DNA of 42,398 nt from a virus, in IMG/VR virus record IMGVR_UViG_3300009156_000050, positions 1 to 42,398 of that record, one strand, 5' to 3'. Shown here in pieces: positions 9,947 through 19,789 of this stretch. The first letter of the stretch is position 1, and each line of letters starts with the position of its first letter. The position numbers and the translations under genes were made by a program. The notes beneath the pieces are model-generated. The model was not told the DNA's origin. It saw nothing but the letters and a program-made list of their open reading frames with translations, and did no database searches.

Positions 9947-9971
9947 TTATAGGGCATGTTTACGCTGCGAA
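9947..9971 (-). promoter_or_regulatory. 25-bp promoter element, copy 1
   Basis: TCGCAG, 13 bases with C at position 7, TATAAT, then GAAAC. It precedes the 9656-9919 gene. Confidence 0.8.
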
Positions 9972-9973
9972 GC

Positions 9974-10516
9974 TTAACTGACAACCTCTATCTCCCCAGC
10001 TGCCAAACGCGGACCAATTTTCTGAGCCTCCTCCGGAGACATCTCCTCGATTTCCTTCTTGGTTATGACTGTCGGTTTCGACGTTCCGGGAATTGCCGTA
10101 AGATCGGGTTTGCTCTCACCTCTCTCGCCTTCCACGACCCTTGCCGCTTCGTCTGCCATTCCGGCGGGAATAATCCCGTTGACGAACTCGATTGCCGAAT
10201 CAGTGTTTGTAACGAGCTCCATGAACAGCGATGAATAAGCCTCGGTCGAAACAAACTCGTCCCTCAACTCTTGGCTCTTGATGAACCTCTTACCGTCGGG
10301 GGATCGCTTACCGTACGAGGTCAAGATTATGTTCTTGAATTCTTTGATTATGCTCTGATTGTCTTCAGCATCGACGATTCGTTGTAACGCCTCTGACAGA
10401 CCATCCTTATGACTCATCTCGAGTTCAACCAGCTCAGCCTTGGACAGGTGAAAGAAGAAATCCTCGCTCACCGTCTCGCCGTTGAAATCCTCATAAGTGA
10501 TCGTCTTCTTGAGCAC
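9974..10516 (-). CDS. Conserved phage protein, possible tail-assembly-like
   Basis: A 180-residue protein with Y-E-D-F-N-G at residue 8, F-F-F-H-L-S-K-A-E-L-V-E-L-E, Y-G-K-R-S-P-D-G-K-R-F-I-K, T-E-A-Y-S-S-L-F-M-E-L, and F-V-N-G-I-I-P-A. I know the pattern from phage proteins sometimes labelled tail assembly chaperone. Here it sits in the accessory region far from the tape measure, and a better chaperone candidate exists at 30640-31182, so I leave the role open. The GTG start has GGAGAAGGGAG upstream. No own terminator is seen; promoter copy 1 follows immediately. Confidence 0.6.
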   Translation of the reverse strand: MLKKTITYEDFNGETVSEDFFFHLSKAELVELEMSHKDGLSEALQRIVDAEDNQSIIKEFKNIILTSYGKRSPDGKRFIKSQELRDEFVSTEAYSSLFMELVTNTDSAIEFVNGIIPAGMADEAARVVEGERGESKPDLTAIPGTSKPTVITKKEIEEMSPEEAQKIGPRLAAGEIEVVS

Positions 10517-10548
10517 TTTTACTTATTACTCCCTTCTCCTCGAGAGAT

Positions 10549-10800
10549 CTATGGTAATTCTCCTCTTGGATCTTGCAGCTTGATCGATATCACTTCTCTG
10601 ATGCCGTCGATGTACTCGTAGACCTCGATCGGCTCCATTCCGAGTTCTTGAAGGAGATTTATCGCCGCCTCAATTTCGTACTTGACCTCGGCGACGGCAC
10701 TCGTTGTGCAAGCCCCTTCAATCGGCCAGAAATTTCGAGTGATAATTCGAATATGGATGATGGGCGAAGTCGATTGCCATGCACGGTCTCTGATCCGGAG
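10549..10800 (-). other. Reading frame without a start; possible +1 frameshift extension
   Basis: The minus-strand frame is open for 83 codons from 10800 to a TAG at 10549, but has no early ATG, GTG or TTG. The part after the upstream stop reads E-G-A-C-T-T-S-A-V-A-E-V-K-Y-E-I-E then E-L-G-M-E-P-I-E-V-Y-E-Y-I-D-G-I-R-E, which looks like genuine protein. The 10718-11575 gene ends G-A-T-T-G-A; slipping forward one base there (+1) would continue into this frame. Alternatives are an ATT start, a short product from the internal ATG (29 residues), or a sequence error. Confidence 0.4.
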
Positions 10801-11575
10801 TCATCGTTGCGGAGATCTTGACCTCGACTCGATCGTTCGCATTCCAGCCGACATGATCCGAATATGACGTCGGAGGCAAGCCGAGCTCGTCATAGAACTC
10901 GCTCAAGCTGACATGCATGAAGTTGAGCAACTCGTGATTGACCTTGTTCTCGGCTCGTTTGATCTCCTCGACCGTGCTCTGGAAATATCGCCCACTGTGC
11001 AGATCGAAGCAGAGAACTTCACCGGCTCCGGCGATGATGACTTCTCGATTGTTCGGAGGATGCTTGGTCACTCTCTCCTGAGCGATATCGTCTCTGACCT
11101 TCTGCTCTTCCCGTTCACCGATCCTGTCGAACACCTTCCGCTTGTACTCCTGCAGAGATCTCTCCGAGATTGCCGAAGCGACCGTAAGGGCGGCGATCTT
11201 CGACGATGTGATCCTGTGCGCCATGACGATGCAGGTGATCGTGACGGCACAAGTGGTCGCCGGTGGAATATACGCCTTCCAAACCAGCTTGGCCTTCCTG
11301 GTCCTTGTCAGCTTCTCGTCGAATGGAGCCTTGACATCATCTTCGGTCAGTTTTTCGTCCGAAGTCGCCCATTGCTTTGCAACTTCTTCCGCCTTCTTCG
11401 CCGCCATCTTTCGCTCTTCTTCGGCGATCATGTCTGCAGCTCTGAATGTGGCTCGTCCTGTCAAGACCGCGGTTGCAACGGTTCCGACCACCGCGATACT
11501 CGACAAAATGGTAGGAGAATTCTCATTCAGGAGGAACTTTGCTTGCTGAGCTTTTTGAGCCAACCCAAGAATCAT
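10718..11575 (-). CDS. DUF6353-like membrane protein, copy B
   Basis: A 285-residue protein laid out like the copy at 7661-8602: an N-terminal hydrophobic segment (S-S-I-A-V-V-G-T-V-A-T-A-V-L-T-G-R-A-T-F), a second near residue 105 (A-T-T-C-A-V-T-I-T-C-I-V-M-A), a serially similar I-A-A-L-T-V-A-S-A-I-S-E-R-S-L-Q-E-Y block, and V-N-H-E-L-L-N-F-M-H-V-S-L-S-E-F-Y-D-E-L-G-L before the final domain with V-G-W. Inferred paralogue; role unknown. GAGAGG precedes the ATG. It follows the 48-residue membrane peptide gene, and both are read from promoter copy 2. Confidence 0.7.
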   Translation of the reverse strand: MILGLAQKAQQAKFLLNENSPTILSSIAVVGTVATAVLTGRATFRAADMIAEEERKMAAKKAEEVAKQWATSDEKLTEDDVKAPFDEKLTRTRKAKLVWKAYIPPATTCAVTITCIVMAHRITSSKIAALTVASAISERSLQEYKRKVFDRIGEREEQKVRDDIAQERVTKHPPNNREVIIAGAGEVLCFDLHSGRYFQSTVEEIKRAENKVNHELLNFMHVSLSEFYDELGLPPTSYSDHVGWNANDRVEVKISATMTPDQRPCMAIDFAHHPYSNYHSKFLAD

Positions 11576-11722
11576 CTATAGACCTCTCACTTTGACGGGC
11601 TTTCGCATTTCCCGGATGAAGATCCAGATCAACCAAAATCCGAAGGTGATTATGGTCATTAGACAGTCACCCAGAAACCTGAAGAAACCGTACCGGTTCT
11701 GCTGAACGATAATTACGTACAT
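11576..11722 (-). CDS. 48-residue membrane peptide
   Basis: A frame of 49 codons with an excellent ribosome site (AGGAGG, 4 bases before ATG). The peptide begins M-Y-V-I-I-V-Q-Q-N, then has a hydrophobic aromatic segment (T-I-I-T-F-G-F-W-L-I-W-I-F-I, about residues 23-36) and a basic tail. Its TAG directly touches the start of the DUF6353-like gene. It is the first gene after the hairpin leader at 11733-11809. No family is recognised. Confidence 0.7.
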   Translation of the reverse strand: MYVIIVQQNRYGFFRFLGDCLMTIITFGFWLIWIFIREMRKPVKVRGL

Positions 11723-11732
11723 ACCACCTCCT

Positions 11733-11809
11733 AAAAAATAAAACGATAAGGGCGCCGCCCCCGATCATCTGCCAGGGGCGGATAGCTCCCAAGACGGGAG
11801 CTTCACCTC
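11733..11809 (-). ncRNA. Two-hairpin leader with U-rich end
   Basis: Downstream of promoter copy 2 the minus strand forms two strong hairpins: AGCTCCC/GGGAGCT (11784-11802, loop of 5) and CCGCCCC/GGGGGCGG (11755-11781). A T-rich run at 11733-11744 follows, and then the AGGAGG of the next gene. The second hairpin plus U-run looks like an intrinsic terminator inside a 5' leader, so transcription into the 48-residue and DUF6353-like genes may be attenuated. It could instead simply end read-through from upstream. Confidence 0.6.
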
Positions 11810-11834
11810 ACTAAAGGCCAAGTTATCGCTGCGA
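11810..11834 (-). promoter_or_regulatory. 25-bp promoter element, copy 2
   Basis: TCGCAG, 13 bases with C at position 7, TTTAGT. The upstream hexamer starts directly after the TAA of the 11835-11942 gene. Confidence 0.65.
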
Positions 11835-11942
11835 TTACTCCTCTCCTTGCCGACAGTCCGGATCGTTTGGATCACATGCCGGATATACAGCCTCGTCTTC
11901 GACTTCCACTTCTTCCGTCTCGACCGTATCCGGTTCGTCCAT
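11835..11942 (-). CDS. 35-residue acidic Cys-containing peptide
   Basis: A peptide starting M-D-E-P-D-T-V-E-T-E-E, highly acidic, with C-D-P-N-D-P-D-C near the end, a possible metal-binding or disulfide pair. AGGAGG precedes the ATG at 11942. An upstream in-frame ATG would read through the promoter and structured RNA, so it is rejected. The gene is the only one read from promoter copy 3. Role unknown; an acidic DNA-mimic is possible but speculative. Confidence 0.6.
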   Translation of the reverse strand: MDEPDTVETEEVEVEDEAVYPACDPNDPDCRQGEE

Positions 11943-11962
11943 AGCGACCTCCTTTTGGAGAG

Positions 11963-12033
11963 AAAAAAAAGAGAGAGCCTGAAGGGTGCCGATGTCCTTC
12001 ATTGCAATGTCCTTAAGGCTGGACAACTCTCTC
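11963..12033 (-). ncRNA. 71-nt structured RNA element, copy A
   Basis: It begins GAGAGAG directly after the TATAAT-like hexamer of promoter copy 3 and ends CTCTCTC plus eight Ts. Inside are a stem TGTCC/GGACA closing the loop AGCCTTAA, a palindrome ATTGCAAT, and a stem TGAAGG/CCTTCA closing a loop with CATCGGCAC. A near twin lies at 12575-12645 with matching base changes in both stems. The AGCCT of the loop can also pair with AGGCT just before the closing arm, an alternative terminator fold. Likely an attenuator, riboswitch-like leader or processed small RNA. Confidence 0.7.
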
Positions 12034-12058
12034 ATAAGAGGGCATGTATTCTCTGCGA
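12034..12058 (-). promoter_or_regulatory. 25-bp promoter element, copy 3
   Basis: TCGCAG, 13 bases with C at position 7, TCTTAT. It starts immediately after the TAA of the 12059-12277 gene and drives RNA copy A. Confidence 0.65.
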
Positions 12059-12277
12059 TTAGGCGGCCTTCACCGTCGTTGCGTCTTCTTGGGGGAAAAG
12101 TCGCATCGCCTCAACGGCTCGAACCACGTTGGTCGCTTCTTCTTCGTCACGGAGACGATAGCCCACACAACGATGTCCATACCAGACGTACCAGAGATCG
12201 GGAGTACGTGTATGTCGAACCCAAATATACACTCCCTGTTCACGAAGCTCGCGGCACCATTTGTGTAGTTCGCTCAT
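12059..12277 (-). CDS. Small hypothetical protein
   Basis: A 72-residue protein starting M-S-E-L-H-K-W-C-R-E-L-R-E-Q-G-V-Y-I-W-V-R-H and including L-W-Y-V-W-Y-G-H-R-C-V-G-Y-R-L. The start at 12277 has GAGG 8 bases upstream; an alternative ATG at 12286 would overlap the upstream stop. It is the second gene of the unit read from promoter copy 4. No family recognised. Confidence 0.65.
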   Translation of the reverse strand: MSELHKWCRELREQGVYIWVRHTRTPDLWYVWYGHRCVGYRLRDEEEATNVVRAVEAMRLFPQEDATTVKAA

Positions 12278-12278
12278 A

Positions 12279-12554
12279 TCACTCATCCTCGAAATCGTGG
12301 GTCTTCTGATGGAATATCCCGCAGGGAACGAAACCCTTCTCATCGTCGATCCGAACGAAGCCGCGACGCATGACACTGGTCTGATAGCCGTCCTTGAAGT
12401 AGAACGTCTTCCCGTCTTGCATCGCAGACTCGAGTGAGAAACGAACGATGCAGCAGATGGGATAACCAAATCTTCGCCCTTTACGCCAATGGAACAGGAA
12501 CTGGTTGATCTTGCCCATGCGTGGAATGGTCATTGAAATATAGCCGTGATCCAT
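12279..12554 (-). CDS. Small Cys-Cys hypothetical protein
   Basis: A 91-residue protein with F-H-W-R-K-G-R-R-F-G-Y-P-I-C-C-I-V-R-F-S near residues 21-40 and V-P-C-G-I-F-H near 76. The pattern of a basic stretch followed by P-x-C-C-I is familiar from actinophage hypotheticals. AAAGGG precedes the ATG at 12554; a longer frame would run through the structured RNA and is rejected. It is the first gene behind RNA copy B. Confidence 0.7.
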   Translation of the reverse strand: MDHGYISMTIPRMGKINQFLFHWRKGRRFGYPICCIVRFSLESAMQDGKTFYFKDGYQTSVMRRGFVRIDDEKGFVPCGIFHQKTHDFEDE

Positions 12555-12574
12555 ACAGCCCTTTCTGAGAAAAG

Positions 12575-12645
12575 AAAAAAAGAGAGAGCCTGAGGGCGTG
12601 CCGATGACCCTCATCGCGATATCGTTAAGGCTCGATGACTCTCTC
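12575..12645 (-). ncRNA. 71-nt structured RNA element, copy B
   Basis: Same layout as copy A: GAGAGAG directly after promoter copy 4, then ATCG/CGAT closing the identical loop AGCCTTAA, palindrome ATCGCGAT, TGAGGG/CCCTCA closing a loop with CATCGGCAC, and CTCTCTC followed by seven Ts. Compared with copy A, paired positions change together (G-C to A-U, C-G to G-C, A-U to G-C), while loops are conserved, which supports an RNA structure under selection. Confidence 0.7.
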
Positions 12646-12670
12646 ATAATAGGGTAGGTAATTTCTGCGA
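12646..12670 (-). promoter_or_regulatory. 25-bp promoter element, copy 4
   Basis: TCGCAG, 13 bases with C at position 7, TATTAT. It drives RNA copy B and the genes at 12279-12554 and 12059-12277. Confidence 0.75.
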
Positions 12671-12675
12671 AAATG

Positions 12676-12731
12676 AAAAAAAGTGAAGAGCGGGGCCCTC
12701 ACAACCCCCTATCGGACGGATGACGCTCTTC
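12676..12731 (-). ncRNA. Candidate stand-alone small RNA (about 56 nt)
   Basis: It begins GAAGAGCG directly after promoter copy 5 and closes with CGCTCTTC, then AC and seven Ts. The next promoter (copy 4) starts only 5 bases later. There is no ribosome site and no gene between, so promoter plus terminator appear to make a short RNA. A frame starting at the ATG that overlaps the -10-like hexamer lacks a ribosome site and would run through the terminator and next promoter. Confidence 0.65.
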
Positions 12732-12756
12732 ATTAAAGGGTAGGGAATTTCTGCGA
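12732..12756 (-). promoter_or_regulatory. 25-bp promoter element, copy 5
   Basis: TCGCAG, 13 bases with C at position 7, TTTAAT. It sits 5 bases after the stop of the 12762-13214 gene. Confidence 0.7.
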
Positions 12757-12761
12757 TTCGT

Positions 12762-13214
12762 CTATATCTCCTCGAAGATTCTGAAGTCTCCCTTAGGACG
12801 ACGAAAGATCTTCCCCTTGGCATCCGGAAGTTTTCCGTACAGATGAGCTGATAAATCGGTGTCTGAGATGCCATGAGCTCGAGCTGCTTGTTGTTGATTG
12901 AAATATCCCACGTTATCGCTCGGCTTTTTTCTGCCAAAATATCCACCCACGTAACTACCATCATCCACGACTATGACGGGATTCCCACGTCTGAAATCTT
13001 TGGGAACCGAAACTTCTCTGAGATTGCTGGGTGGACCAGTAAAGACGACAGTGGGCGCAGCAGGTGTGTTGAACGTAACGTATCGTTTCGTCACAACACA
13101 TCCGACGACGAAGGCTCCGGTAATAGCGATACCGGTGTAGATGCCCTGATTTCGTTTTACATGTGTTTTGGTCTTGCCGTATATCACTTTGATGTTTTCT
13201 CTACCGAATTTCAT
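12762..13214 (-). CDS. Membrane protein with DNA-binding-like C-terminus
   Basis: A 150-residue protein. Basic N-terminus, one membrane segment (about residues 24-42: Y-T-G-I-A-I-T-G-A-F-V-V-G-C-V-V), a linker, and a C-terminal region N-Q-Q-Q-A-A-R-A-H-G-I-S-D-T-D-L-S-A-H-L-Y-G, resembling the helix-turn-helix modules (NUMOD-like) that phages place at protein ends. The start at 13214 has AGGAG 8 bases upstream; longer frames have no ribosome site. It would combine membrane anchoring with nucleic acid recognition, a tentative reading. Confidence 0.65.
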   Translation of the reverse strand: MKFGRENIKVIYGKTKTHVKRNQGIYTGIAITGAFVVGCVVTKRYVTFNTPAAPTVVFTGPPSNLREVSVPKDFRRGNPVIVVDDGSYVGGYFGRKKPSDNVGYFNQQQAARAHGISDTDLSAHLYGKLPDAKGKIFRRPKGDFRIFEEI

Positions 13215-13262
13215 ACTTCTTACTCCTTTCGATATGGTAACAATATGTGACAACAACTTCTC

Positions 13263-13287
13263 ATAATAGGCTATGTTTTGTTGGCGA
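13263..13287 (-). promoter_or_regulatory. 25-bp promoter element, copy 6
   Basis: TCGCCA (diverged), 13 bases with C at position 7, TATTAT. It precedes the 12762-13214 gene. Confidence 0.65.
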
Positions 13288-13306
13288 TAGAGAAAACAGA
13301 TAGGGC

Positions 13307-13642
13307 TTATAGCAGGGAAAATAGGTAGAATATCCCCGCAATTACCAGCAAAAATGCGCTTGGGACGGCCACATCCATGATGTTGTCGAACCAATGGATT
13401 GGCTTCTTGTCGACGAAGGCGTAGATCGTCTGCTCGATCTCTCGAATCAGGTAATATCCAATCGCGACTGCAATGCCGTAGAACTCGGCGCCATGTCCGA
13501 CTGAATATGCGATCAATCCGACGACTAGGGCGATGATGACCGCGAAGACCGTATGGGCGATCCAGGTCTTCCAGTCGGGTCCGTGCGTCCATTCTGAGAT
13601 CTTGTCGCGGATATCTCGGCGGCGTTCCGCTTGCGTTCTCAT
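13307..13642 (-). CDS. Three-segment membrane protein
   Basis: A 111-residue protein with a charged N-terminus (R-T-Q-A-E-R-R-R-D-I-R), the pattern D-W-K-T-W-I-A-H, and three hydrophobic segments near residues 32-52, 56-70 and 88-110. I recall similar proteins in actinophages annotated only as membrane proteins; three segments of this size also fit some holins. The start ATG at 13642 has TTGGAGG upstream. It is the last gene of the operon read from promoter copy 7. Confidence 0.7.
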   Translation of the reverse strand: MRTQAERRRDIRDKISEWTHGPDWKTWIAHTVFAVIIALVVGLIAYSVGHGAEFYGIAVAIGYYLIREIEQTIYAFVDKKPIHWFDNIMDVAVPSAFLLVIAGIFYLFSLL

Positions 13643-13644
13643 GA

Positions 13645-13866
13645 TTATGTCCTCCAACCAACCACAAATGCCGGTTGTCTTCGATGTTCCCCGAATCGAT
13701 TCTTTCGCCAGGGAGTGAGTAAGATTGCCTTTGACGCGTATTTGTTCCCTTCTCGATCATTCGTCCATGCGTTATCGATCATGGGCGCACCTTCACCTTG
13801 TCGGCACCAGGTCAAGATCAATCGTCCGAACCGTCGTCCTCGATAGGGTAAACTTTCTTCAGACAT
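13645..13866 (-). CDS. Small basic hypothetical protein
   Basis: A 73-residue basic protein, Y-R-G-R-R-F-G-R-L-I-L-T-W-C near the start and several Trp residues. GGGAGG lies directly before the ATG. Its stop is 2 bases before the next start, so translation is probably coupled. No family recognised. Confidence 0.6.
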   Translation of the reverse strand: MSEESLPYRGRRFGRLILTWCRQGEGAPMIDNAWTNDREGNKYASKAILLTPWRKNRFGEHRRQPAFVVGWRT

Positions 13867-13902
13867 CCTCCCTCTCCTTAGACGTTCTCATGACTCCCTT
13901 TC

Positions 13903-14130
13903 TTAAATCGGCGTTACAACGAGAAACGGGTCGTCCTCGACCTCTCCCCCCAGAAAAATGCCTCGAACGTGGTACACGTTGCCGGTTTCGGTCCAGATAG
14001 CAAAACGTTTCCCACCCATGAAGTCCACGCATAGCCATGGACCGGTATTTTGCATCTTGTATGGCACTGCCGCCGGGTACGCTGCCAACAGCAGATCCAG
14101 CCCTTGACGCGTTTTCGATATCTCAGCCAT
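13903..14130 (-). CDS. Small hypothetical protein
   Basis: A 75-residue protein with L-D-L-L-L-A-A-Y-P, W-L-C-V-D-F-M-G-G-K-R-F-A-I-W and a beta-rich appearance. GGTGG precedes the ATG, which overlaps the upstream membrane peptide gene by 8 bases. No family recognised. Confidence 0.6.
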   Translation of the reverse strand: MAEISKTRQGLDLLLAAYPAAVPYKMQNTGPWLCVDFMGGKRFAIWTETGNVYHVRGIFLGGEVEDDPFLVVTPI

Positions 14131-14230
14131 TTAGCCACCAAACCAGTAAGCCGGAAAGAAATCCGCCGATGTAACCGATACTGAACACGGCGAGTAGAGC
14201 TTGTTCGATTTTGTCGGGATGCTTCTTCAT
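14123..14230 (-). CDS. 35-residue membrane peptide
   Basis: A frame of 36 codons whose ATG overlaps the upstream stop (ATGA). After a basic start (M-K-K-H-P-D-K) comes one hydrophobic segment (about residues 11-33) ending W-W-L-N-G. Overlaps at both ends with neighbours support translation as part of this operon. Role unknown. Confidence 0.6.
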   Translation of the reverse strand: MKKHPDKIEQALLAVFSIGYIGGFLSGLLVWWLNG

Positions 14231-14397
14231 ATCTTCTCTTTTGCCACGTGGATGATTACTTGTCGAAGTGTGTCTCCTCCAAAATATACGATCATGATTC
14301 CGACGACGTTCCTGCCCAGAGCATCGACAACCCCGCTGTAATCGACCGGCTCGCTCTTGGGCACCTCTTCCTTATTTGGCTCCGGATCCTTCACCAT
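14227..14397 (-). CDS. 56-residue hypothetical protein
   Basis: A short protein: charged Pro/Glu-rich start (M-V-K-D-P-E-P-N-K-E-E), then a hydrophobic C-terminal half (V-V-G-I-M-I-V-Y-F-G-G). I chose the ATG at 14397 with AGGTGAAA upstream; it overlaps the preceding gene by 26 bases. A longer frame to 14493 lies wholly inside that gene and is less likely. Confidence 0.6.
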   Translation of the reverse strand: MVKDPEPNKEEVPKSEPVDYSGVVDALGRNVVGIMIVYFGGDTLRQVIIHVAKEKI

Positions 14398-15150: not shown

Positions 15151-15344
15151 AGCTTCTCCTTTCGAAGTACGTTCAGAATATCTCCTTTTACCTCATTCCA
15201 TTCGTCAAGGAGCTCATTCATCTTCTCGTCAACATCATCGACATCCTGCTCGGTGAAGGCTCGACCCGATCTGAGCTTTTTTCCGATGAGGTTTACGCGA
15301 AGTGACAAATTTCTTCGACGAATATTCAAGTCGGATGGTGGCAT
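15147..15344 (-). CDS. Small helical hypothetical protein
   Basis: A 65-residue charged protein, mostly helical, with E-Q-D-V-D-D-V-D-E-K-M-N-E-L-L-D-E-W-N-E-V in the centre, a likely coiled coil. I chose the ATG at 15344 because AAAGG lies upstream; longer frames run into the structured leader. It is the first gene of a nine-gene operon behind promoter copy 7. Confidence 0.6.
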   Translation of the reverse strand: MPPSDLNIRRRNLSLRVNLIGKKLRSGRAFTEQDVDDVDEKMNELLDEWNEVKGDILNVLRKEKL

Positions 15345-15365
15345 GTAATCCTTTCGCATAGAGAG

Positions 15366-15426
15366 AAAAAATATAAAGAGACGGCTCACGCTTTTACAGC
15401 CGGTGAGTTACTTCCTGTCTCTTTCT
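15366..15426 (-). ncRNA. Structured leader RNA with terminator-like end
   Basis: Starting 2 bases after promoter copy 7, AAAGAGAC pairs with GTCTCTTT before a T-rich run. Inside, CTCAC can pair with GTGAG, or CGGCT with AGCCG; the two inner pairings exclude each other. An intrinsic terminator for the gene upstream already stands at 15457-15484, so this second terminator-like element behind the promoter is not needed for upstream termination. It could attenuate the nine-gene operon that follows. Confidence 0.6.
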
Positions 15427-15451
15427 ATAAAAGGCTAAGTTTTTCCTGCGA
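15427..15451 (-). promoter_or_regulatory. 25-bp promoter element, copy 7
   Basis: TCGCAG, 13 bases with C at position 7, TTTTAT. It is the only array promoter seen before the operon 15344 to 13307. Confidence 0.65.
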
Positions 15452-15456
15452 TCGAC

Positions 15457-15484
15457 AAAAAAGGAAAGCCTGTGTAGACTCTCC
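15457..15484 (-). terminator. Intrinsic terminator
   Basis: Stem GGAGAGTC/GGCTTTCC with loop TACACA and six Ts, after the 15494-15658 gene. Confidence 0.85.
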
Positions 15485-15493
15485 TTTCTGGAA

Positions 15494-15658
15494 CTACTCC
15501 TCGGTGGGCTTGTCAGCCTTCCGCTTGTTCCACAGAGAACGGACCTTGCCTCCGGTGAACCGAACGGCGTCGACAGTGGCGCTTGCAGCGACACTACCGG
15601 CCGTCGTTGCGGCTCCGAAGACGAATCCGCCCTTGGCTAGAACAGCATACGGTGGCAT
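15494..15658 (-). CDS. 54-residue small protein
   Basis: A peptide with a Gly/Ala-rich, weakly hydrophobic half (A-K-G-G-F-V-F-G-A-A-T-T-A-G-S-V-A-A-S-A) and a basic tail (K-V-R-S-L-W-N-K-R-K-A). AGGAGG stands 4 bases before the ATG. It has its own promoter (copy 8) and terminator (15457-15484). No family recognised; possibly membrane-associated. Confidence 0.65.
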   Translation of the reverse strand: MPPYAVLAKGGFVFGAATTAGSVAASATVDAVRFTGGKVRSLWNKRKADKPTEE

Positions 15659-15680
15659 ATTGCCTCCTTGTAGTGGTTTC

Positions 15681-15705
15681 ATTATAAGACGTGTATTTTC
15701 TGCGA
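15681..15705 (-). promoter_or_regulatory. 25-bp promoter element, copy 8
   Basis: TCGCAG, 13 bases with C at position 7, TATAAT, then GAAACC; drives the 15494-15658 gene. Confidence 0.85.
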
Positions 15706-15713
15706 TTTCCAGC

Positions 15714-15742
15714 AAAAAAAGAGAGCCTATGTAGACTCTCCT
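15714..15742 (-). terminator. Intrinsic terminator
   Basis: Stem GAGAGTC/GGCTCTC around TACATA with seven Ts, about 30 bases after the 15772-15897 gene. Confidence 0.85.
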
Positions 15743-15771
15743 TTTCGAAGCCGTCGAGCCTCGGGAATTAT

Positions 15772-15897
15772 TCACATTGTTGCTGTTCGCATCCGTCGTC
15801 GAACGGCGTCGGCCGTGAGCAAGTACAGGACTGCCGCGAGGAAGACCAGACGTCTCACCGTCACCTGTCGACGAACGAACGAAAGCATCTTGCGCAT
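15772..15897 (-). CDS. 41-residue basic membrane peptide
   Basis: A peptide with a strongly basic start (M-R-K-M-L-S-F-V-R-R-Q-V-T-V-R-R), a hydrophobic stretch (L-V-F-L-A-A-V-L-Y-L-L, about residues 17-27) and a basic end. AAGGAG precedes the ATG. The frame sits alone between promoter copy 9 and a terminator. Role unknown. Confidence 0.6.
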   Translation of the reverse strand: MRKMLSFVRRQVTVRRLVFLAAVLYLLTADAVRRRMRTATM

Positions 15898-15920
15898 AAT
15901 CGCTCCTTGGTTGAGGTTTC

Positions 15921-15945
15921 ATAATAGGCGAGGTAATATCTGCGA
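15921..15945 (-). promoter_or_regulatory. 25-bp promoter element, copy 9
   Basis: TCGCAG, 13 bases with C at position 7, TATTAT, then GAAACC; drives the 15772-15897 gene. Confidence 0.8.
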
Positions 15946-15946
15946 C

Positions 15947-15977
15947 AAAAAAGGAAAGCGCTTGTTAGGCGCCTTCC
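15947..15977 (-). terminator. Intrinsic terminator overlapping a stop codon
   Basis: Stem GGAAGGCGC/GCGCTTTCC with six Ts. The TAA of the 15965-16156 gene lies in the hairpin, so the last codons form its 5' arm. Confidence 0.85.
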
Positions 15978-16156
15978 TTCGTCGAGATGTACGCAATCTC
16001 GGGGAAAATATCTCCGACGATCTGCGTCGCGATCTTGGCCTTCCGCTCCTTCGTCTTTGCGGAGTCGAACTCGTCCCGTTGTTCGGGCGTGATCTCCTTC
16101 GCGATGACACGAATGACGCGGAGAGCCGTGATCGGATGCTTGATAATGCGAAGCAT
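15965..16156 (-). CDS. Small hypothetical protein
   Basis: A 63-residue protein: L-R-I-I-K-H-P-I-T-A-L-R-V-I-R-V-I-A-K-E-I-T-P-E-Q-R, amphipathic helices, then E-R-K-A-K-I-A. The motif E-R-K-A-x-I-A also appears in the cassette protein at 16867-17034 (E-R-K-A-E-I-A), perhaps a distant relation. AAAGGA precedes the ATG; monocistronic cassette. Confidence 0.65.
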   Translation of the reverse strand: MLRIIKHPITALRVIRVIAKEITPEQRDEFDSAKTKERKAKIATQIVGDIFPEIAYISTKEGA

Positions 16157-16186
16157 TTTGTTCCTTTCTGTTGTGTTTTATCTCTC

Positions 16187-16211
16187 ACTATGAAACATGT
16201 ATTTTCTGCGA
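16187..16211 (-). promoter_or_regulatory. 25-bp promoter element, copy 10
   Basis: TCGCAG, 13 bases with C at position 7, CATAGT; drives the 15965-16156 gene. Confidence 0.75.
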
Positions 16212-16221
16212 TTTTGCAGGC

Positions 16222-16252
16222 AAAAAAGGAAAGTCCTTGTAGACTCTCCTTT
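16222..16252 (-). terminator. Intrinsic terminator
   Basis: Stem GGAGAGTC/GACTTTCC around TACAAG with six Ts, just after the 16259-16495 gene. Confidence 0.85.
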
Positions 16253-16258
16253 CTGGAA

Positions 16259-16495
16259 CTACTTCCAGACGAACACTTGCTGATCGCGGTGAAGCCCGAT
16301 GGCCCGATGCCGTATGGGATGATCATGATTGGCTTCGATCGCCAGCTTGAGCTCGAAGAGGTCGTTCTTCCATTCGTAGATATTACGAATGGTCGCTCGA
16401 CTCTCGAGATCGATCTGGATCAGATCGCCGATCTGAAGATCCTCCACACGGGCAACGTGCTGGGTGAGCTTCTTTCTGCGAAACAACTTAAGCAT
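16259..16495 (-). CDS. Small beta-rich hypothetical protein
   Basis: A 78-residue protein with a basic start (M-L-K-L-F-R-R-K-K-L) and V-E-D-L-Q-I-G-D-L-I-Q-I-D-L, R-A-T-I-R-N-I-Y-E-W-K-N-D-L-F-E-L-K-L-A. The G-D-x-I-x-I pattern suggests a small beta barrel. It resembles the cassette protein at 19101-19328 in plan (basic start, N-D-K-I-R-V-Q, aromatic middle). Monocistronic; AAAGGAG before the ATG. Confidence 0.65.
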   Translation of the reverse strand: MLKLFRRKKLTQHVARVEDLQIGDLIQIDLESRATIRNIYEWKNDLFELKLAIEANHDHPIRHRAIGLHRDQQVFVWK

Positions 16496-16516
16496 TTTTC
16501 TCCTTTAGTAGGTTTC

Positions 16517-16541
16517 ATTATGAAACATGTATTTTCTGCGA
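16517..16541 (-). promoter_or_regulatory. 25-bp promoter element, copy 11
   Basis: TCGCAG, 13 bases with C at position 7, CATAAT, then GAAACC; drives the 16259-16495 gene. Confidence 0.8.
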
Positions 16542-16550
16542 TTTGCAGGC

Positions 16551-16580
16551 AAAAAAGAGAGCCAGTGTAGACTCTCCTTT
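16551..16580 (-). terminator. Intrinsic terminator
   Basis: GAGAGTC pairs with GGCTCTC, six Ts follow; after the 16597-16785 gene. Confidence 0.85.
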
Positions 16581-16596
16581 TCGATCCTGGTAGGGA

Positions 16597-16785
16597 TCAG
16601 TCCTTGATCAGGCCGCTGACGAGCCCCTCGCGCTCCTTCTGCAACTCCTTGATTTTTTCTTGCAACTCTTTGATTTCTTCGTCGATATCGTCGATCCGAC
16701 TTTTATCAATAGAGTCGCTCAACCAAATGGATGCTTTGAGAACGCCTATACCGGCTCCTTTAGCAGCTTTTCCAATTTTGGACAT
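16597..16785 (-). CDS. Small coiled-coil protein
   Basis: A 62-residue protein: Gly/Ala-rich N-terminal helix, then a clear coiled coil (D-I-D-E-E-I-K-E-L-Q-E-K-I-K-E-L-Q-K-E-R-E, about residues 33-53). Probably oligomeric; role unknown. AAAGGAG precedes the ATG; monocistronic cassette. Confidence 0.7.
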   Translation of the reverse strand: MSKIGKAAKGAGIGVLKASIWLSDSIDKSRIDDIDEEIKELQEKIKELQKEREGLVSGLIKD

Positions 16786-16805
16786 GATACTCCTTTGTAG
16801 GTTTC

Positions 16806-16830
16806 ACTATAGGGAAGGTAATATCTACGA
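16806..16830 (-). promoter_or_regulatory. 25-bp promoter element, copy 12
   Basis: TCGTAG, 13 bases with C at position 7, TATAGT, then GAAACC; drives the 16597-16785 gene. Confidence 0.75.
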
Positions 16831-16858
16831 AAAAAAGGAAAGTCCGTGTGGACTCTCC
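16831..16858 (-). terminator. Intrinsic terminator
   Basis: Stem GGAGAGTCC/GGACTTTCC with loop ACAC and T-run; after the 16867-17034 gene. The run of Ts abuts promoter copy 12. Confidence 0.85.
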
Positions 16859-16866
16859 TCTTCGAA

Positions 16867-17034
16867 TCAGTCCTCCTTGCAGTTACACTGCGGAGTCATC
16901 GAGACTCGGATGATGGCGATCTCGTTGGCGATCTCAGCCTTGCGCTCGGGCGACGTATTTACACGTCCGTGCTCGTGCACAAGATTGTCGATTGCCTCAT
17001 AGATGCGCTTATCGATGTCCTCGATTGCACTCAT
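16867..17034 (-). CDS. 55-residue protein with C-terminal Cys pair
   Basis: A peptide beginning M-S-A-I-E-D-I-D-K-R-I-Y-E-A-I-D, helical, ending P-Q-C-N-C-K-E-D; the C-x-C could bind metal. AAAGGAG precedes the ATG. Own promoter (copy 13) and terminator. No family recognised. Confidence 0.65.
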   Translation of the reverse strand: MSAIEDIDKRIYEAIDNLVHEHGRVNTSPERKAEIANEIAIIRVSMTPQCNCKED

Positions 17035-17063
17035 AGTGGTCTCCTTTTGGTAGGATTGGTTTC

Positions 17064-17088
17064 ATTATAAGACATGTAATATCTGCGA
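17064..17088 (-). promoter_or_regulatory. 25-bp promoter element, copy 13
   Basis: TCGCAG, 13 bases with C at position 7, TATAAT, then GAAACC; drives the 16867-17034 gene. Confidence 0.85.
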
Positions 17089-17116
17089 AAAAGGAAAGTC
17101 CTTGTAGACTCTCCTT
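17088..17116 (-). terminator. Intrinsic terminator
   Basis: Stem GGAGAGTC/GACTTTCC around TACAAG with five Ts that run into promoter copy 13; after the 17122-17316 gene. Confidence 0.8.
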
Positions 17117-17121
17117 CTTGA

Positions 17122-17316
17122 TTACAACTCAATTTTTGGAATGTTGATAACGCGTCCATCGACCAAGGTGACGTCGCCAGCGATATCCTCGTTGAAACAC
17201 TCCACTGCGGCTTCCCAAAAAGCGAGGTCACGCTCTTCTTTAGTCGTAGTGGAAATGTTCTTCCGATTCTCTTCGATGACGGCTTTCATCTTGGCCGTTG
17301 AATCTTTGATACTCAT
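17122..17316 (-). CDS. Small hypothetical protein
   Basis: A 64-residue protein with a basic helical N-terminus, E-R-D-L-A-F-W-E-A-A-V-E-C-F-N-E-D-I and a C-terminal beta pair (V-T-L-V-D-G-R-V-I-N-I-P). I chose the ATG at 17316 (AAAGG upstream) over a TTG at 17322. Monocistronic cassette. Confidence 0.65.
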   Translation of the reverse strand: MSIKDSTAKMKAVIEENRKNISTTTKEERDLAFWEAAVECFNEDIAGDVTLVDGRVINIPKIEL

Positions 17317-17340
17317 TTCCAATCCTTTCGTTGTGGTTTC

Positions 17341-17365
17341 ATTATAGGCTCGGTAATATCTGCGA
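17341..17365 (-). promoter_or_regulatory. 25-bp promoter element, copy 14
   Basis: TCGCAG, 13 bases with C at position 7, TATAAT, then GAAACC; drives the 17122-17316 gene. Confidence 0.85.
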
Positions 17366-17394
17366 AAAAGGAAAGCGCATGGTTAGCGCCTTCC
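17365..17394 (-). terminator. Intrinsic terminator overlapping a stop codon
   Basis: Stem GGAAGGCGC/GCGCTTTCC with five Ts. The TAA of the 17383-17619 gene lies in the loop, as at 15947-15977. Confidence 0.85.
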
Positions 17395-17619
17395 CTGTAG
17401 GTGTTGATCCGCAAAGCGGTTCAATACGATCTTGCCGAACTGGTCGAGCTCCATGTCCTTGTTGTATACGTGATTGGCCATGGTGTTCAGCCAAGCGATG
17501 TCCTGCTTGTGGGAATCCTTGAGGATATTCCTTTCGCGACGGACTCGGTTGTACCGAACCACCATTGCCGCTCCGTAAAACGGCGACGTGTATGCAAGAG
17601 CAGCATCAATTAAAGTCAT
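17383..17619 (-). CDS. Small hypothetical protein
   Basis: A 78-residue protein: an N-terminal weakly hydrophobic segment (L-I-D-A-A-L-A-Y-T-S-P-F-Y-G-A-A-M-V-V) followed by a basic, helical region (R-Y-N-R-V-R-R-E-R-N). Possibly membrane-associated. AGGAG precedes the ATG; monocistronic cassette. Confidence 0.65.
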   Translation of the reverse strand: MTLIDAALAYTSPFYGAAMVVRYNRVRRERNILKDSHKQDIAWLNTMANHVYNKDMELDQFGKIVLNRFADQHLQGRR

Positions 17620-17642
17620 ATCAAACTCCTGTTTGTGGTTTC

Positions 17643-17667
17643 ATTATAGGACCGGTAATTTCTGCGA
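17643..17667 (-). promoter_or_regulatory. 25-bp promoter element, copy 15
   Basis: TCGCAG, 13 bases with C at position 7, TATAAT, then GAAACC; drives the 17383-17619 gene. Confidence 0.85.
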
Positions 17668-17696
17668 AAAACTAAAGCCCCTGTAGGGGCCTTAGT
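17667..17696 (-). terminator. Intrinsic terminator
   Basis: Stem ACTAAGGCCCC/GGGGCTTTAGT with a 4-base loop and five Ts; after the 17697-17888 gene. Confidence 0.85.
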
Positions 17697-17888
17697 CTAT
17701 TGCTCTGCCTTCAGATATTTGATCCTCTGATCGAGGGCATCTGCTGTAGCTAGAAGACCGTCTCGAGTATCTTGCAAATGCTTGATCTCCAGCTCAACGC
17801 CGTTTTCTTTCAAGAATTTGCCCGCATCCTCGAGATTCTCTCCGAGCGTATGAAACAGTATTTCCCACGATGGTAAAGGGTTTTCCAT
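17697..17888 (-). CDS. Small helical hypothetical protein
   Basis: A 63-residue acidic, helical protein: L-G-E-N-L-E-D-A-G-K-F-L-K-E-N-G-V-E-L-E-I-K then a second helix with A-L-D-Q-R-I-K-Y-L-K. Coiled-coil character. AAAGGAG precedes the ATG; monocistronic cassette. Confidence 0.65.
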   Translation of the reverse strand: MENPLPSWEILFHTLGENLEDAGKFLKENGVELEIKHLQDTRDGLLATADALDQRIKYLKAEQ

Positions 17889-17910
17889 TATTCTCCTTTA
17901 GACAGATCTC

Positions 17911-17935
17911 ATTATACACCGTGTTTTTCATGCGA
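17911..17935 (-). promoter_or_regulatory. 25-bp promoter element, copy 16
   Basis: TCGCAT, 13 bases with C at position 7, TATAAT; drives the 17697-17888 gene. Confidence 0.75.
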
Positions 17936-17966
17936 AAAAAGAGAGCCCATGTTCTGGGCCCTCCTT
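17935..17966 (-). terminator. Intrinsic terminator
   Basis: Stem GGAGGGCCCA/TGGGCTCTC, short loop, six Ts; after the 17971-18234 gene. Confidence 0.85.
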
Positions 17967-17970
17967 TTGA

Positions 17971-18234
17971 TCAGTCGTCTTCCACGATGTCGTCGAGGGA
18001 TATCTCCATCAATCCAGTCTTGAGCAATCCTCTTGCTCGATACGTCGGCATGAGTCCGTTCGCGTAGAACGTCGGATATGAGCTGCCTTTCTCTCGGTCC
18101 GGGTTCTCTGCATAGCAGACAACTACCCAGTCCAAGAGAATATCGCCTGGCTCAAAATCTTCGCCTTCCGCGATTACTTCTCTCAGGACGGTCTCGATCT
18201 TGTCGGATTGTATCTTGTCTTGATGAATAGACAT
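17971..18234 (-). CDS. Conserved phage protein (DUF7213-like)
   Basis: An 87-residue protein: L-L-D-W-V-V-V-C-Y-A-E-N near residue 33, a variable loop, then L-M-P-T-Y-R-A-R-G-L-L-K-T-G-L near 61. A D-W-V-V-V strand followed by R-A-x-G-L-L is typical of a small actinophage family that I remember as DUF7213; tentative. The ATG at 18234 has AAAGGAGG upstream; a longer frame would include the promoter. Monocistronic cassette. Confidence 0.65.
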   Translation of the reverse strand: MSIHQDKIQSDKIETVLREVIAEGEDFEPGDILLDWVVVCYAENPDREKGSSYPTFYANGLMPTYRARGLLKTGLMEISLDDIVEDD

Positions 18235-18267
18235 TTTCCTCCTTTCGATATGGTGGATTAGATTCTC

Positions 18268-18292
18268 ATAATAGGGGAAGGAATATCTACGA
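18268..18292 (-). promoter_or_regulatory. 25-bp promoter element, copy 17
   Basis: TCGTAG, 13 bases with C at position 7, TATTAT; drives the 17971-18234 gene. Confidence 0.75.
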
Positions 18293-18294
18293 CG

Positions 18295-18326
18295 AAAAAG
18301 GAGAGCCCATGTTTCAGGCTCTCTCT
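18295..18326 (-). terminator. Intrinsic terminator
   Basis: Stem GAGAGCC/GGCTCTC with a 9-base loop and five Ts; directly after the 18330-18698 gene. Confidence 0.85.
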
Positions 18327-18329
18327 TTC

Positions 18330-18698
18330 TCAATCTAAATATCCGAACGCTAGTAGTGGACCTTCACGACGATCATCCATGATGAAGACGGCTCCGTTTT
18401 TCTCGTACCAGGCTCTCAGCTCTTCATTGCTTTGTATCGCGTCGTCGCCGACATCAACATCAAATATCTTTGCTCTGATAAGCAACGTAAGTTCGTGCTT
18501 GTGGCAGTACTCGTCGATTTCTCGTAGGAGTTCTGTTCCTTCGCCCTTACGTCGATTCGTCGAACGCATGTCATACAGATGTGCGTGCGAGCGATCGTCT
18601 AGCGGTATAGCAATGTTGGCCGAAGCGCCCTTGTGCTTGAAATATACGAGCCAGGTCTTCTCCGGATTTTCTTCGTGAGGAACGGTCTTTACAATCAT
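18330..18698 (-). CDS. GNAT-family acetyltransferase
   Basis: A 122-residue protein with the acetyl-CoA loop R-R-K-G-E-G (about residues 49-54) preceded by the strand H-L-Y-D-M-R-S and followed by helix T-E-L-L-R-E-I-D-E-Y-C; later E-L-R-A-W-Y-E-K-N-G-A-V-F, the usual C-terminal GNAT signature. It would transfer an acetyl group to an unknown amine: a protein, metabolite or antibiotic. It is the most recognisable enzyme in the cassette array and a candidate host-modifying protein. AAGGAG precedes the ATG; own promoter and terminator. Confidence 0.8.
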   Translation of the reverse strand: MIVKTVPHEENPEKTWLVYFKHKGASANIAIPLDDRSHAHLYDMRSTNRRKGEGTELLREIDEYCHKHELTLLIRAKIFDVDVGDDAIQSNEELRAWYEKNGAVFIMDDRREGPLLAFGYLD

Positions 18699-18719
18699 GT
18701 CGCTCCTTAGATAGATTTC

Positions 18720-18744
18720 ATTATAGGCGAGGTAATATCTGCGC
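18720..18744 (-). promoter_or_regulatory. 25-bp promoter element, copy 18
   Basis: GCGCAG, 13 bases with C at position 7, TATAAT; drives the GNAT gene. Confidence 0.75.
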
Positions 18745-18783
18745 CTTGATGCGAAATATCCCCCCGGGGTTTTTTGGGAATTG
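18745..18783 (-). other. Inserted spacer with CCCCGGGG palindrome
   Basis: Other cassettes have at most about 10 bases between terminator U-run and promoter; here there are about 39. The spacer holds CCCCGGGG, an ATATTTCGCATC stretch reminiscent of the promoter hexamer, and a C/A-rich end. It may be a scar of a lost cassette. On the plus strand the palindrome is followed by six Ts, weakly terminator-like. Confidence 0.4.
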
Positions 18784-18813
18784 AAAAAAGGAAAGTCCTT
18801 GTAGACTCTCCTC
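18784..18813 (-). terminator. Intrinsic terminator
   Basis: Stem GGAGAGTC/GACTTTCC around TACAAG with six Ts; after the 18821-18997 gene. Confidence 0.85.
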
Positions 18814-18820
18814 TTTGAAA

Positions 18821-18997
18821 CTAGGCTTCCAACTCGGCGGTCTCTGTTTCGTACTCACGCTGGTCTCGACGATCCATGTACTTCATGTATCCGTAAGCAG
18901 CCACGATCAGAGCTGCGTTGAGAGCAACGTACTGAACGGGGTGGTTCCGGATCCAGTTGTACTGGACCTGTTGAGATTTGCGGTAAAGCTCGAACAT
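18821..18997 (-). CDS. 58-residue membrane peptide
   Basis: A peptide with an N-terminal polar helix (M-F-E-L-Y-R-K-S-Q-Q-V-Q-Y-N-W-I-R), a hydrophobic stretch (Y-V-A-L-N-A-A-L-I-V-A-A-Y-G-Y, about residues 23-37) and an acidic tail. Probable single-pass membrane protein. AGGAG precedes the ATG; own promoter (copy 19) and terminator. Confidence 0.65.
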   Translation of the reverse strand: MFELYRKSQQVQYNWIRNHPVQYVALNAALIVAAYGYMKYMDRRDQREYETETAELEA

Positions 18998-19025
18998 TTG
19001 AATCTCCTGTTAGAGGGATGGTTTC

Positions 19026-19050
19026 ATTATAAAACATGTAATTTCTGCGA
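19026..19050 (-). promoter_or_regulatory. 25-bp promoter element, copy 19
   Basis: TCGCAG, 13 bases with C at position 7, TATAAT, then GAAACC; drives the 18821-18997 gene. Confidence 0.85.
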
Positions 19051-19060
19051 TTTAGCAGGC

Positions 19061-19091
19061 AAAAAAGGAAAGTCTGTGTAGACTCTCCTTT
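19061..19091 (-). terminator. Intrinsic terminator
   Basis: Stem GGAGAGTC/GACTTTCC around a TACACA-type loop with six Ts; after the 19101-19328 gene. Confidence 0.85.
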
Positions 19092-19100
19092 CGAACTTAC

Positions 19101-19328
19101 CTAGTTCTCGTAGAGTTCTAGTTTTGTGTTCTTTGGGACGGTAAGCGTACCCATGTACGAACCCCGTCCGCCGTTGTACGAGTGGTACCAGAGTTCGAAC
19201 GTAATCTCCTCGCCGATCCAAATGTTATGGATAACGGCGACGATATTCTGAACTCTGATCTTGTCGTTCGGCTTCACGCGATTCGCTTTTGCGTAACGCT
19301 TCTTGTCCTTGTTGAACAAATTGAACAT
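19101..19328 (-). CDS. Small beta-rich hypothetical protein
   Basis: A 75-residue protein: basic start (M-F-N-L-F-N-K-D-K-K-R-Y-A-K-A-N-R-V), then K-P-N-D-K-I-R-V-Q-N-I-V and a run of beta strands (F-E-L-W-Y-H-S-Y-N-G-G-R-G-S-Y-M-G-T-L-T-V). AAAGGAG precedes the ATG; monocistronic cassette. No family recognised. Confidence 0.65.
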   Translation of the reverse strand: MFNLFNKDKKRYAKANRVKPNDKIRVQNIVAVIHNIWIGEEITFELWYHSYNGGRGSYMGTLTVPKNTKLELYEN

Positions 19329-19349
19329 CTAACTCCTTTGGTAGGTTTC

Positions 19350-19374
19350 GTTATACGACGTGTTATTTCTGCGA
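19350..19374 (-). promoter_or_regulatory. 25-bp promoter element, copy 20
   Basis: TCGCAG, 13 bases with C at position 7, TATAAC, then GAAACC; drives the 19101-19328 gene. Confidence 0.75.
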
Positions 19375-19402
19375 AAAAAAATGAGTCCATGTTTGAATTG
19401 CG
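19375..19402 (-). other. Probable decayed promoter copy
   Basis: Between terminator 19403-19440 and promoter copy 20 the minus strand reads TCGCAA, 13 bases with an A-A-A-C-A-T-G core like the array promoters, then TCATTT and a T-run. It matches the element except for the ruined -10 hexamer, so it looks like a remnant of a duplicated or lost cassette. Confidence 0.45.
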
Positions 19403-19440
19403 AAAAATATGAAAGGCCGCGTGGTTAGCGGCCCCTCATA
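19403..19440 (-). terminator. Intrinsic terminator
   Basis: Long stem (ATGAGGGGCCGC/GCGGCCTTTCAT) with a 7-base loop and a T-rich tail; about 25 bases after the 19466-19741 gene. Confidence 0.85.
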
Positions 19441-19465
19441 TCTGATTCTCTCTCTAGAACGTCCT

Positions 19466-19741
19466 TTATCTCGGACGCATGACCATGCCCATCGCTCTCG
19501 ACACGATTACGTTGACGTGCTCGTGCCTGATGACCATGACGATCCCCAGGAGATTGGCAGCGATGAGAGCGACCGTGTCTTTACTCATAGGATCAGATGT
19601 TTCTTCACTCTTCATCCTATGCAGCTTGATGATCACTTCCAACGTCTTGTTGTACTCCTCGGAACCAATCGGATGGTTCTTCAGTTCACGAACAGCACGT
19701 TCGAGCTCGAGGTCGATAATGCTTGGCGATCGTGAGAACAT
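19466..19741 (-). CDS. Small helical protein with hydrophobic segment
   Basis: A 91-residue protein: amphipathic N-terminal half (I-D-L-E-L-E-R-A-V-R-E-L-K-N-H-P...Y-N-K-T-L-E-V-I-I-K-L-H) and a C-terminal hydrophobic segment (T-V-A-L-I-A-A-N-L-L-G-I-V-M-V-I-R-H-E-H, about residues 57-76). I recall this plan in actinophage proteins of unknown role. AAAAGGAGG precedes the ATG; first cassette of the array as transcribed. Confidence 0.7.
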   Translation of the reverse strand: MFSRSPSIIDLELERAVRELKNHPIGSEEYNKTLEVIIKLHRMKSEETSDPMSKDTVALIAANLLGIVMVIRHEHVNVIVSRAMGMVMRPR

Positions 19742-19764
19742 AGACCTCCTTTTGATAGAGTCTC

Positions 19765-19789
19765 ATTATAGGCCAAGTTTCACTTGCGA
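19765..19789 (-). promoter_or_regulatory. 25-bp promoter element, copy 21
   Basis: TCGCAA, 13 bases with C at position 7, TATAAT. Rightmost copy found. It overlaps the last codons of the 19780-20016 gene and drives 19466-19741. Confidence 0.75.

Follow-up and report, generated by a model that had tools for sequence, protein, structure and literature searches.

An array of fixed-geometry elements as putative promoters of a phage-encoded two-barrel RNA polymerase

The 42,398-base virus record IMGVR_UViG_3300009156_000050 of IMG/VR, which stems from a soil phage and the whole of which is referred to here as the window, contains 21 copies of a short element, TCGCAG-N13-TATAAT, all of them on the minus strand. 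These elements are probably the cognate promoters of the phage's own polymerase, a putative single-chain two-barrel DNA-dependent RNA polymerase of the phrog_4291 family. What was obtained by computation comprises the motif with its constant spacing, strand and placement, the way it accompanies the polymerase and drifts along with phage lineage, and the fold predicted for the polymerase of the relatives. The link to a phage polymerase appears to be what is new here, its kind being already known from the Thermus phage P23-45.

Sequence and geometry of the element

Scanning with TCGCAG-N6-C-N6-TATAAT located the copies from 9946-9970 to 19765-19789. An initial annotation, made from the letters of the window, had described an array of 21 promoter elements with identical geometry, and this was borne out: 13 bases separate the two hexamers in 21/21 copies, spacer position 7 is C in 21/21, and the base preceding it is A in 19/21. 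GAAACC, which had been called usual in single-gene cassettes, follows 9 of the 14 consecutive ones and 9 of the 21 copies overall, and the looser G-A-R-A follows nearly all copies in the window. The whole-genome search for the pattern that had been recommended returned, with up to two mismatches, 20 matches in the reverse orientation and none in the forward one, versus one for the reversed-pattern control. With up to three mismatches, 30 matches were obtained versus 9.7 expected, and none of 100 shuffles reached 30.

When the 21 sites were turned into a matrix and both strands of the window were scanned with it, those 21 alone were recovered. The information content of the matrix sits in three blocks (TCGCAG, wwAC and TATAAT) and extends into G-A-R-A. 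No -35 box was seen at positions -41 to -32, which carry at most 0.53 bit each among the 21 window sites, in agreement with the initial remark that a box at the normal distance would fall on variable bases. Similarly, no TTGACA was found at 16-18 bases in the window or in the relatives, the conservation at -41 to -32 being limited to a weak T-richness; this T-richness stems from the terminator before it, whose tail falls there.

Spread of the element among related phages

The relatives detected by tblastn belong to the Deejayvirinae (Gordonia), Pepyhexavirus (Rhodococcus), Gordonvirus and Mudcatvirus (Arthrobacter), Bingvirus and Scapunavirus (Streptomyces), and the 1706-like Lactococcus phages. 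The element, its spacing and its place on the map were alike in every relative checked, with hosts in Gordonia, Rhodococcus, Arthrobacter, Streptomyces, Microbacterium, Curtobacterium, Lactococcus and Faecalibacterium. The array is present in the window as had been noted, and is also a lineage-wide feature that extends beyond it. With the window matrix, the counts of sites at the corresponding map position were 13 in Tanis, 16 in Pepy6, 10 in Gordon and 12 in Kardashian, with none on the opposite strand. After the matrix was widened with the sites from these four scans, arrays were also found in Bilo, DizzyRudy, Eevee, Mudcat, the oral contig89 and D_HF5_2C. Diverged versions occur in the Lactococcus phages 1706, CHPC971 and P092, and a strongly diverged one in the Faecalibacterium phage FP_oengus.

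Additionally, 80 IMG/VR loci with the DNA primase/family B DNA polymerase gene (primase-PolB, phrog_4210; 2525..6277 on the minus strand of the window), a lineage marker that co-occurs with phrog_4291 in the relatives, yielded 407 sites on the coding strand, none on the opposite strand and none in reversed sequence. The gap from TCGCA to TATAATG was 14 in 211 of 223 cases. An exact 31-base pattern with 19 fixed bases matched 56 stretches among 2.9 million viral contigs of IMG/VR, versus one for the reversed pattern. The 53 contigs matched in this way comprised 25 with the polymerase, 7 more with primase-PolB, 16 more with a relative of the tape measure protein of the window, a weaker lineage marker that occurs in other phages too, and 5 that measured at most 8.4 kb each. 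The distribution of the motif follows phrog_4291, and the matches elsewhere are almost all fragments of the lineage. Enterococcus and Listeria phages were considered as polymerase-free controls and dropped; the Enterococcus matches to the primase-PolB query covered the PolB domain only, at about 25% identity, which places those phages outside this lineage.

The copies of the window are restricted to cassette starts within 9.9-19.8 kb. So many nearly identical asymmetric copies, all oriented alike with respect to transcription, might also be operators for a phage repressor or for an elongation-blocking protein, like the stoperators of cluster A mycobacteriophages. This explanation is so improbable as to be nearly negligible, because the copies sit only at cassette starts and on the coding strand, where they show start-site features and begin the transcribed unit, with none between structural genes. 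Moreover, integrases are absent from most of the annotated relatives seen, FP_oengus being the exception.

The phrog_4291 polymerase

In every named complete-genome carrier, phrog_4291 is encoded downstream of primase-PolB as a protein of about 900 residues, annotated either as an RNA-dependent RNA polymerase or as a helix-turn-helix (HTH) protein. Among the annotated phages, 252 records had primase-PolB and 249 had phrog_4291 over at least 80% of the query. The family is widespread, spanning hosts from Lactococcus to Streptomyces in at least 249 phage records. The element array was present in 14/14 named phages bearing phrog_4291, and the element in 21/21 such IMG/VR records (142 matches on the majority strand, against 3 on the opposite one and 4 in the control). 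The search for a polymerase gene outside the window, suggested initially, was productive: phrog_4291 is encoded by every named complete genome that bears the array. Relatives whose primase-PolB is 77-82% identical hold phrog_4291 on the same contig, and judging from their sequences this particular virus probably has the gene as well.

The motif LSGADFDGD is common to five aligned phrog_4291 proteins, with GADFDGD invariant; an aspartate triad of the DxDxD type is the catalytic signature of two-barrel polymerases. A model built from a 37-sequence alignment (mean predicted local distance difference test score, pLDDT, 80; predicted template modelling score, pTM, 0.62) had its best fold match in QDE-1 (E 5e-9, Z 14.2, root-mean-square deviation 4.3, 371 residues aligned). 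Next came RDR2, and then the non-virion polymerases P23-45 gp64 and P74-26 gp62 (Z 11.7 and 11.6; E 1e-6 for gp62). The predicted fold in the relatives thus points to a single-chain two-barrel polymerase. A sequence-profile search of solved structures with phrog_4291 gave a short match in the HTH region only. The HTH matches of phrog_4291 lie near residues 40-110 and 870-900 and are weak and sigma-region-4-like.

A small protein of 80-103 residues, phrog_4303, is encoded directly after the polymerase gene in 8/8 genomes compared (for instance L065:39310-39558, L066:49268-49510, L069:45176-45436 and L236:31391-31660 in relatives' loci), and is a candidate accessory or specificity factor. A note for Pepy6 labels the 1706 homologue of phrog_4291 a structural protein, and phrog_4291 might possibly be injected together with the DNA.

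Position of the RNA start

In 43 of 73 cassettes without an open reading frame (ORF), a stem of at least 6 bp that closes on the T-tract of the terminator begins at the base right after the hexamer, whereas stems starting elsewhere amounted to 1-5 cases per position from +5 to +17. When the pairing partners were shuffled, the count averaged 27 and never exceeded 35, versus 47 observed (a count that differs slightly from the 43/73). The stem pairs covary, with GC, AT and GU found at one position. Furthermore, a tRNA begins 2 bases past the hexamer in FP_oengus (47.9 bits) and another 3 bases past it in D_HF5_2C (28.9 bits, just below the gathering score). A start 6-8 bases downstream is disfavored because both tRNAs would be cut into. 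From the stem and tRNA positions, the RNA would start at the end of the hexamer or within about 2 bases of it. A sigma-70 start lies about 7 bases after the -10 hexamer, and a sigma-70 reading is disfavored because the start deduced here would be too close to the hexamer.

The 5'-terminal hairpins of FP_oengus were rejected as evidence for the start point, since only 4-5 of 14 were at that position. At 3033, 3660, 5713 and 8245 of this genome (L236), a short hairpin (GGAG..CTCC, GAGA..TCTC) stands at the 5' end of the presumed RNA and perhaps serves in mRNA protection.

Drift of the hexamer and fit to host sigma-A

Sigma-70 family factors need A-11 for melting, and a host sigma-A should keep both A-11 and T-7 near-invariant. 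T-7 was kept, but A-11 was present in 17/21 window copies, and in FP_oengus, where the hexamer is CTTTAT in 11/15 copies, it was found in 0/15. In a free-hexamer set of 255 sites, chosen without regard to the hexamer, T-12 was present in 96%, A-11 in 87%, T-10 in 91% and T-7 in 95%. TATAGT occurred in 17/17 copies of 1706 and CHPC971, and TATAAT in 7/7 copies of P092; all three of these phages infect Lactococcus lactis. On this sequence evidence, the hexamer tracks the phage lineage and not the host, and a host sigma factor is disfavored because of this and because FP_oengus has no A-11. A plain sigma-70 promoter was rejected, given the lack of a -35 box, the hexamer variants and a presumed start too near the hexamer.

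Actinobacterial sigma-A promoters often have an unclear -35 and follow the pattern TANNNT at -10. The TATAAT of most copies would be accounted for by common host sigma-A promoters in which the -10 is good, the -35 is poor or missing, and the upstream block merely reflects the shared ancestry of duplicated cassettes; this is how the motif was described in the Gordonia phages Vardy and Conley (PMC9671010, PMC10868162). Nevertheless, this is very unlikely: the block and its spacing persist from Lactococcus to Streptomyces hosts while the flanks are lost, T-10 exceeds A-11 in the free-hexamer set, unlike TANNNT, and FP_oengus has the CTTTAT version.

Less improbable, though still unlikely, is that a phage activator, bound to a -30 box in place of the -35, redirects the host sigma-A polymerase in the style of MotA/AsiA. 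Most hexamers are TATAAT, the protein phrog_4303 beside the polymerase could be such a factor, and the distance of 13 bases between the box and a sigma-A-like hexamer is near the spacing of the MotA box in T4, a likeness that serves as a lead only. However, the loss of A-11 from all 15 FP_oengus copies, an apparent start immediately past the hexamer, a place where sigma-70 starts do not fall, and the differences in the hexamer among phages of one host species all speak against it. Among the readers that the initial annotation had listed, a phage-encoded polymerase with its gene outside the window is therefore favored, while a host sigma and a stoperator-like repressor are disfavored.

Proposed mechanism

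Counted from the presumed start, the promoter would consist of TCGCA (-25 to -21), a run of A/T that ends in ACA (about -14 to -12), TATAAT (-6 to -1) and G-A-R-A (+1 to +4). The sequence patterns suggest that phrog_4291 reads this element. The polymerase would bind the spaced blocks, possibly via its N- and C-terminal HTH domains and possibly with phrog_4303; the AT-rich hexamer would be melted, and the RNA would start at the hexamer end or no more than about 2 bases from it. Since an intrinsic terminator closes most cassettes, each small gene or structured RNA would form an independent unit. In Tanis, Pepy6, Gordon and FP_oengus, the endonuclease-exonuclease-polymerase operon, which includes the polymerase gene, has a copy in front of it, and this arrangement may provide positive feedback. 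It is about an even call whether the phrog_4291 family combines all of the following: promoter recognition built in through its own HTH ends, a triple-block element with the start right after a TATAAT-like hexamer, a dispersed array of one-gene or one-RNA units, and a promoter and enzyme that drifted together from TATAAT to CTTTAT.

Several points weigh against a phage polymerase as the reader. The hexamer sequence of most copies fits sigma-A, and TATAAT is the classical host -10, so that convergence or a contribution of the host could be involved. About 20-30% of the closing stems pair 1-3 bases into the hexamer, which makes the exact start base uncertain. The contig of the window stops before the position of the phrog_4291 gene, which places the gene outside it, and co-occurrence cannot separate phrog_4291 from other genes fixed in the same lineage. 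Finally, nothing comparable to the element was found near the mapped start of YonO, the single-chain polymerase of the Bacillus phage SPbeta, in the region upstream of yonK, and a profile comparison of YonO with phrog_4291 detected no similarity beyond the catalytic motif.

Cassettes of the window and structured RNAs

The window is in reverse orientation, with the genes for terminase, portal, head protease and tail at positions above 20 kb, followed by the array (21 copies at 9946..19789 on the minus strand, by the pattern and matrix scans) and then by primase-PolB. From 19789 to 15462 there are 14 consecutive cassettes, each made up of the element, a leader of 20-33 bases with a ribosome-binding site, an ORF of 41-122 codons and an intrinsic terminator. 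All elements and ORFs that follow are on the minus strand, and the terminator positions are approximate. The first element, 19765..19789 (TCGCAAGTGAAACTTGGCCTATAAT), heads ORF 19466-19741 (91 amino acids, terminator ~19407). It is followed by the elements at 19350..19374, with ORF 19101-19328 (75 amino acids, terminator ~19066); 19026..19050, with ORF 18821-18997 (58, ~18789); 18720..18744, with ORF 18330-18698 (122, ~18299); and 18268..18292, with ORF 17971-18234 (87, ~17940). Then come 17911..17935, heading ORF 17697-17888 (63, ~17671); 17643..17667, heading ORF 17383-17619 (78, ~17369); 17341..17365, heading ORF 17122-17316 (64, ~17092); 17064..17088, heading ORF 16867-17034 (55, ~16836); and 16806..16830, heading ORF 16597-16785 (62, ~16556). 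The series ends with 16517..16541 and ORF 16259-16495 (78, ~16227), 16187..16211 and ORF 15965-16156 (63, ~15952), 15921..15945 and ORF 15772-15897 (41, ~15720), and 15681..15705 and ORF 15494-15658 (54, ~15462). Two further copies directly head an ORF, namely 13263..13287 (ORF 12762-13214, 150 amino acids) and 9946..9970 (ORF 9656-9919, 87 amino acids, terminator ~9625). The replication operon starts right past this last terminator, and the stretch 9594-9656 shows neither an element nor an obvious promoter for it.

Five copies (15427, 12732, 12646, 12034 and 11810) do not lead straight into a gene and head short fold-back RNAs ending in a T-tract, followed by an ORF in four of the five. The element at 12732..12756 heads the one with no ORF, a structured RNA from 12731 to ~12677 whose 5' GAAGAGCG pairs with CGCTCTTC ahead of the T-tract. 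The other four are structured leader RNAs: 15427..15451 heads a short one (15426 to ~15366) with a terminator, and then ORF 15147-15344; 12646..12670 one from 12645 to ~12576, with GAGAGAG/CTCTCTC pairing ahead of the T-tract, and then ORF 12279-12554; 12034..12058 one from 12033 to ~11964 with a terminator, by sequence inspection, and then an ORF from ~11942; and 11810..11834 one from 11809 to ~11736, and then ORF 11576-11722. The hairpin-terminator that stands between element and ORF in these four resembles a leader/attenuator arrangement.

In the relatives, a structured RNA headed by the element recurs, with the pattern GACACnAATG...GTAGGTG..CCTACC and in most cases also a CAGTTTT..GGGCTG hairpin (L065:9799, L067:16598, L088:2405, L092:562, L093:3453, L094:4243, L104:12, L117:3899, L118:3948 and L120:1363). 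No Rfam match was found at this RNA in the loci tested (L094, L104, L118 and L120). A pistol ribozyme was detected in the right arm of one relative (L120:19705-19756, 43.3 bits).

Significance and comparison with known systems

Known promoters of phage polymerases of the single-chain two-barrel type are few. If the proposed reading is true, about 250 sequenced phages, many of them in teaching collections and with culturable hosts, would each offer some ten or more natural promoter variants for one enzyme family. Promoter recognition by two-barrel enzymes would become directly testable, a compact orthogonal transcription system for actinobacteria might be derived, and the sigma-70 annotation of the motif would be corrected. 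In the searchable literature, with subscription papers outside the search, no paper was found that links the motif to phrog_4291 or assigns a promoter to this polymerase family.

Five copies of an intergenic motif of 50 bp or 43 bp have been reported in the Gordonia cluster DJ phages Vardy and Conley, with its TATAAT called a sigma-70 -10 (PMC9671010, PMC10868162). This is very likely the same element, since it contains TATAAT, lies in the central small-gene region and comes from the same cluster as the Tanis relatives. Those descriptions include no upstream block, no spacing, no link to a phage polymerase and no extension beyond the cluster.

As in the stoperators of cluster A mycobacteriophages, there are many short asymmetric copies in one orientation; stoperators are bound by an immunity repressor and are scattered across the genome, also within operons, whereas the present copies occur only at the starts of transcription units. 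The T4 middle promoters have a conserved MotA box near -30, 12-13 bases from a TATAAT hexamer. The element is like them in its box-to-hexamer spacing, which is 13 in 21/21 copies and fixed across relatives, and unlike them in that the hexamer can lose A-11 and that the presumed start comes right after it.

YonO is likewise a phage enzyme, a single-chain DNA-dependent RNA polymerase that has a DxDGD motif, and starts upstream of a non-coding RNA (PMC5467207). Unlike the phrog_4291 arrays, it transcribes late genes from one mapped start, and no such element lies upstream of yonK. Its promoter, and whether YonO recognizes it alone, were left open in 2017 (PMC5467207).

The closest precedent is P23-45, which has two two-barrel RNA polymerases, gp96 in the virion and the non-virion gp64, whose promoters were studied in PMC10770324. 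There, as proposed here, a phage-encoded single-chain two-barrel polymerase goes together with several motif copies upstream of early genes, and the presence of the motif follows that of the polymerase among relatives, which is a precedent for the reasoning used above (PMC10770324). In addition, gp64 and its P74-26 homologue gp62 are themselves fold matches for phrog_4291. The two systems differ in that P23-45 has AT-rich and GC-rich motifs with starts mapped by sequencing, whereas here the start is deduced and the element is a TCGCA/ACA/TATAAT triple block, and in that phrog_4291, unlike the P23-45 enzymes, has HTH matches at both of its ends.

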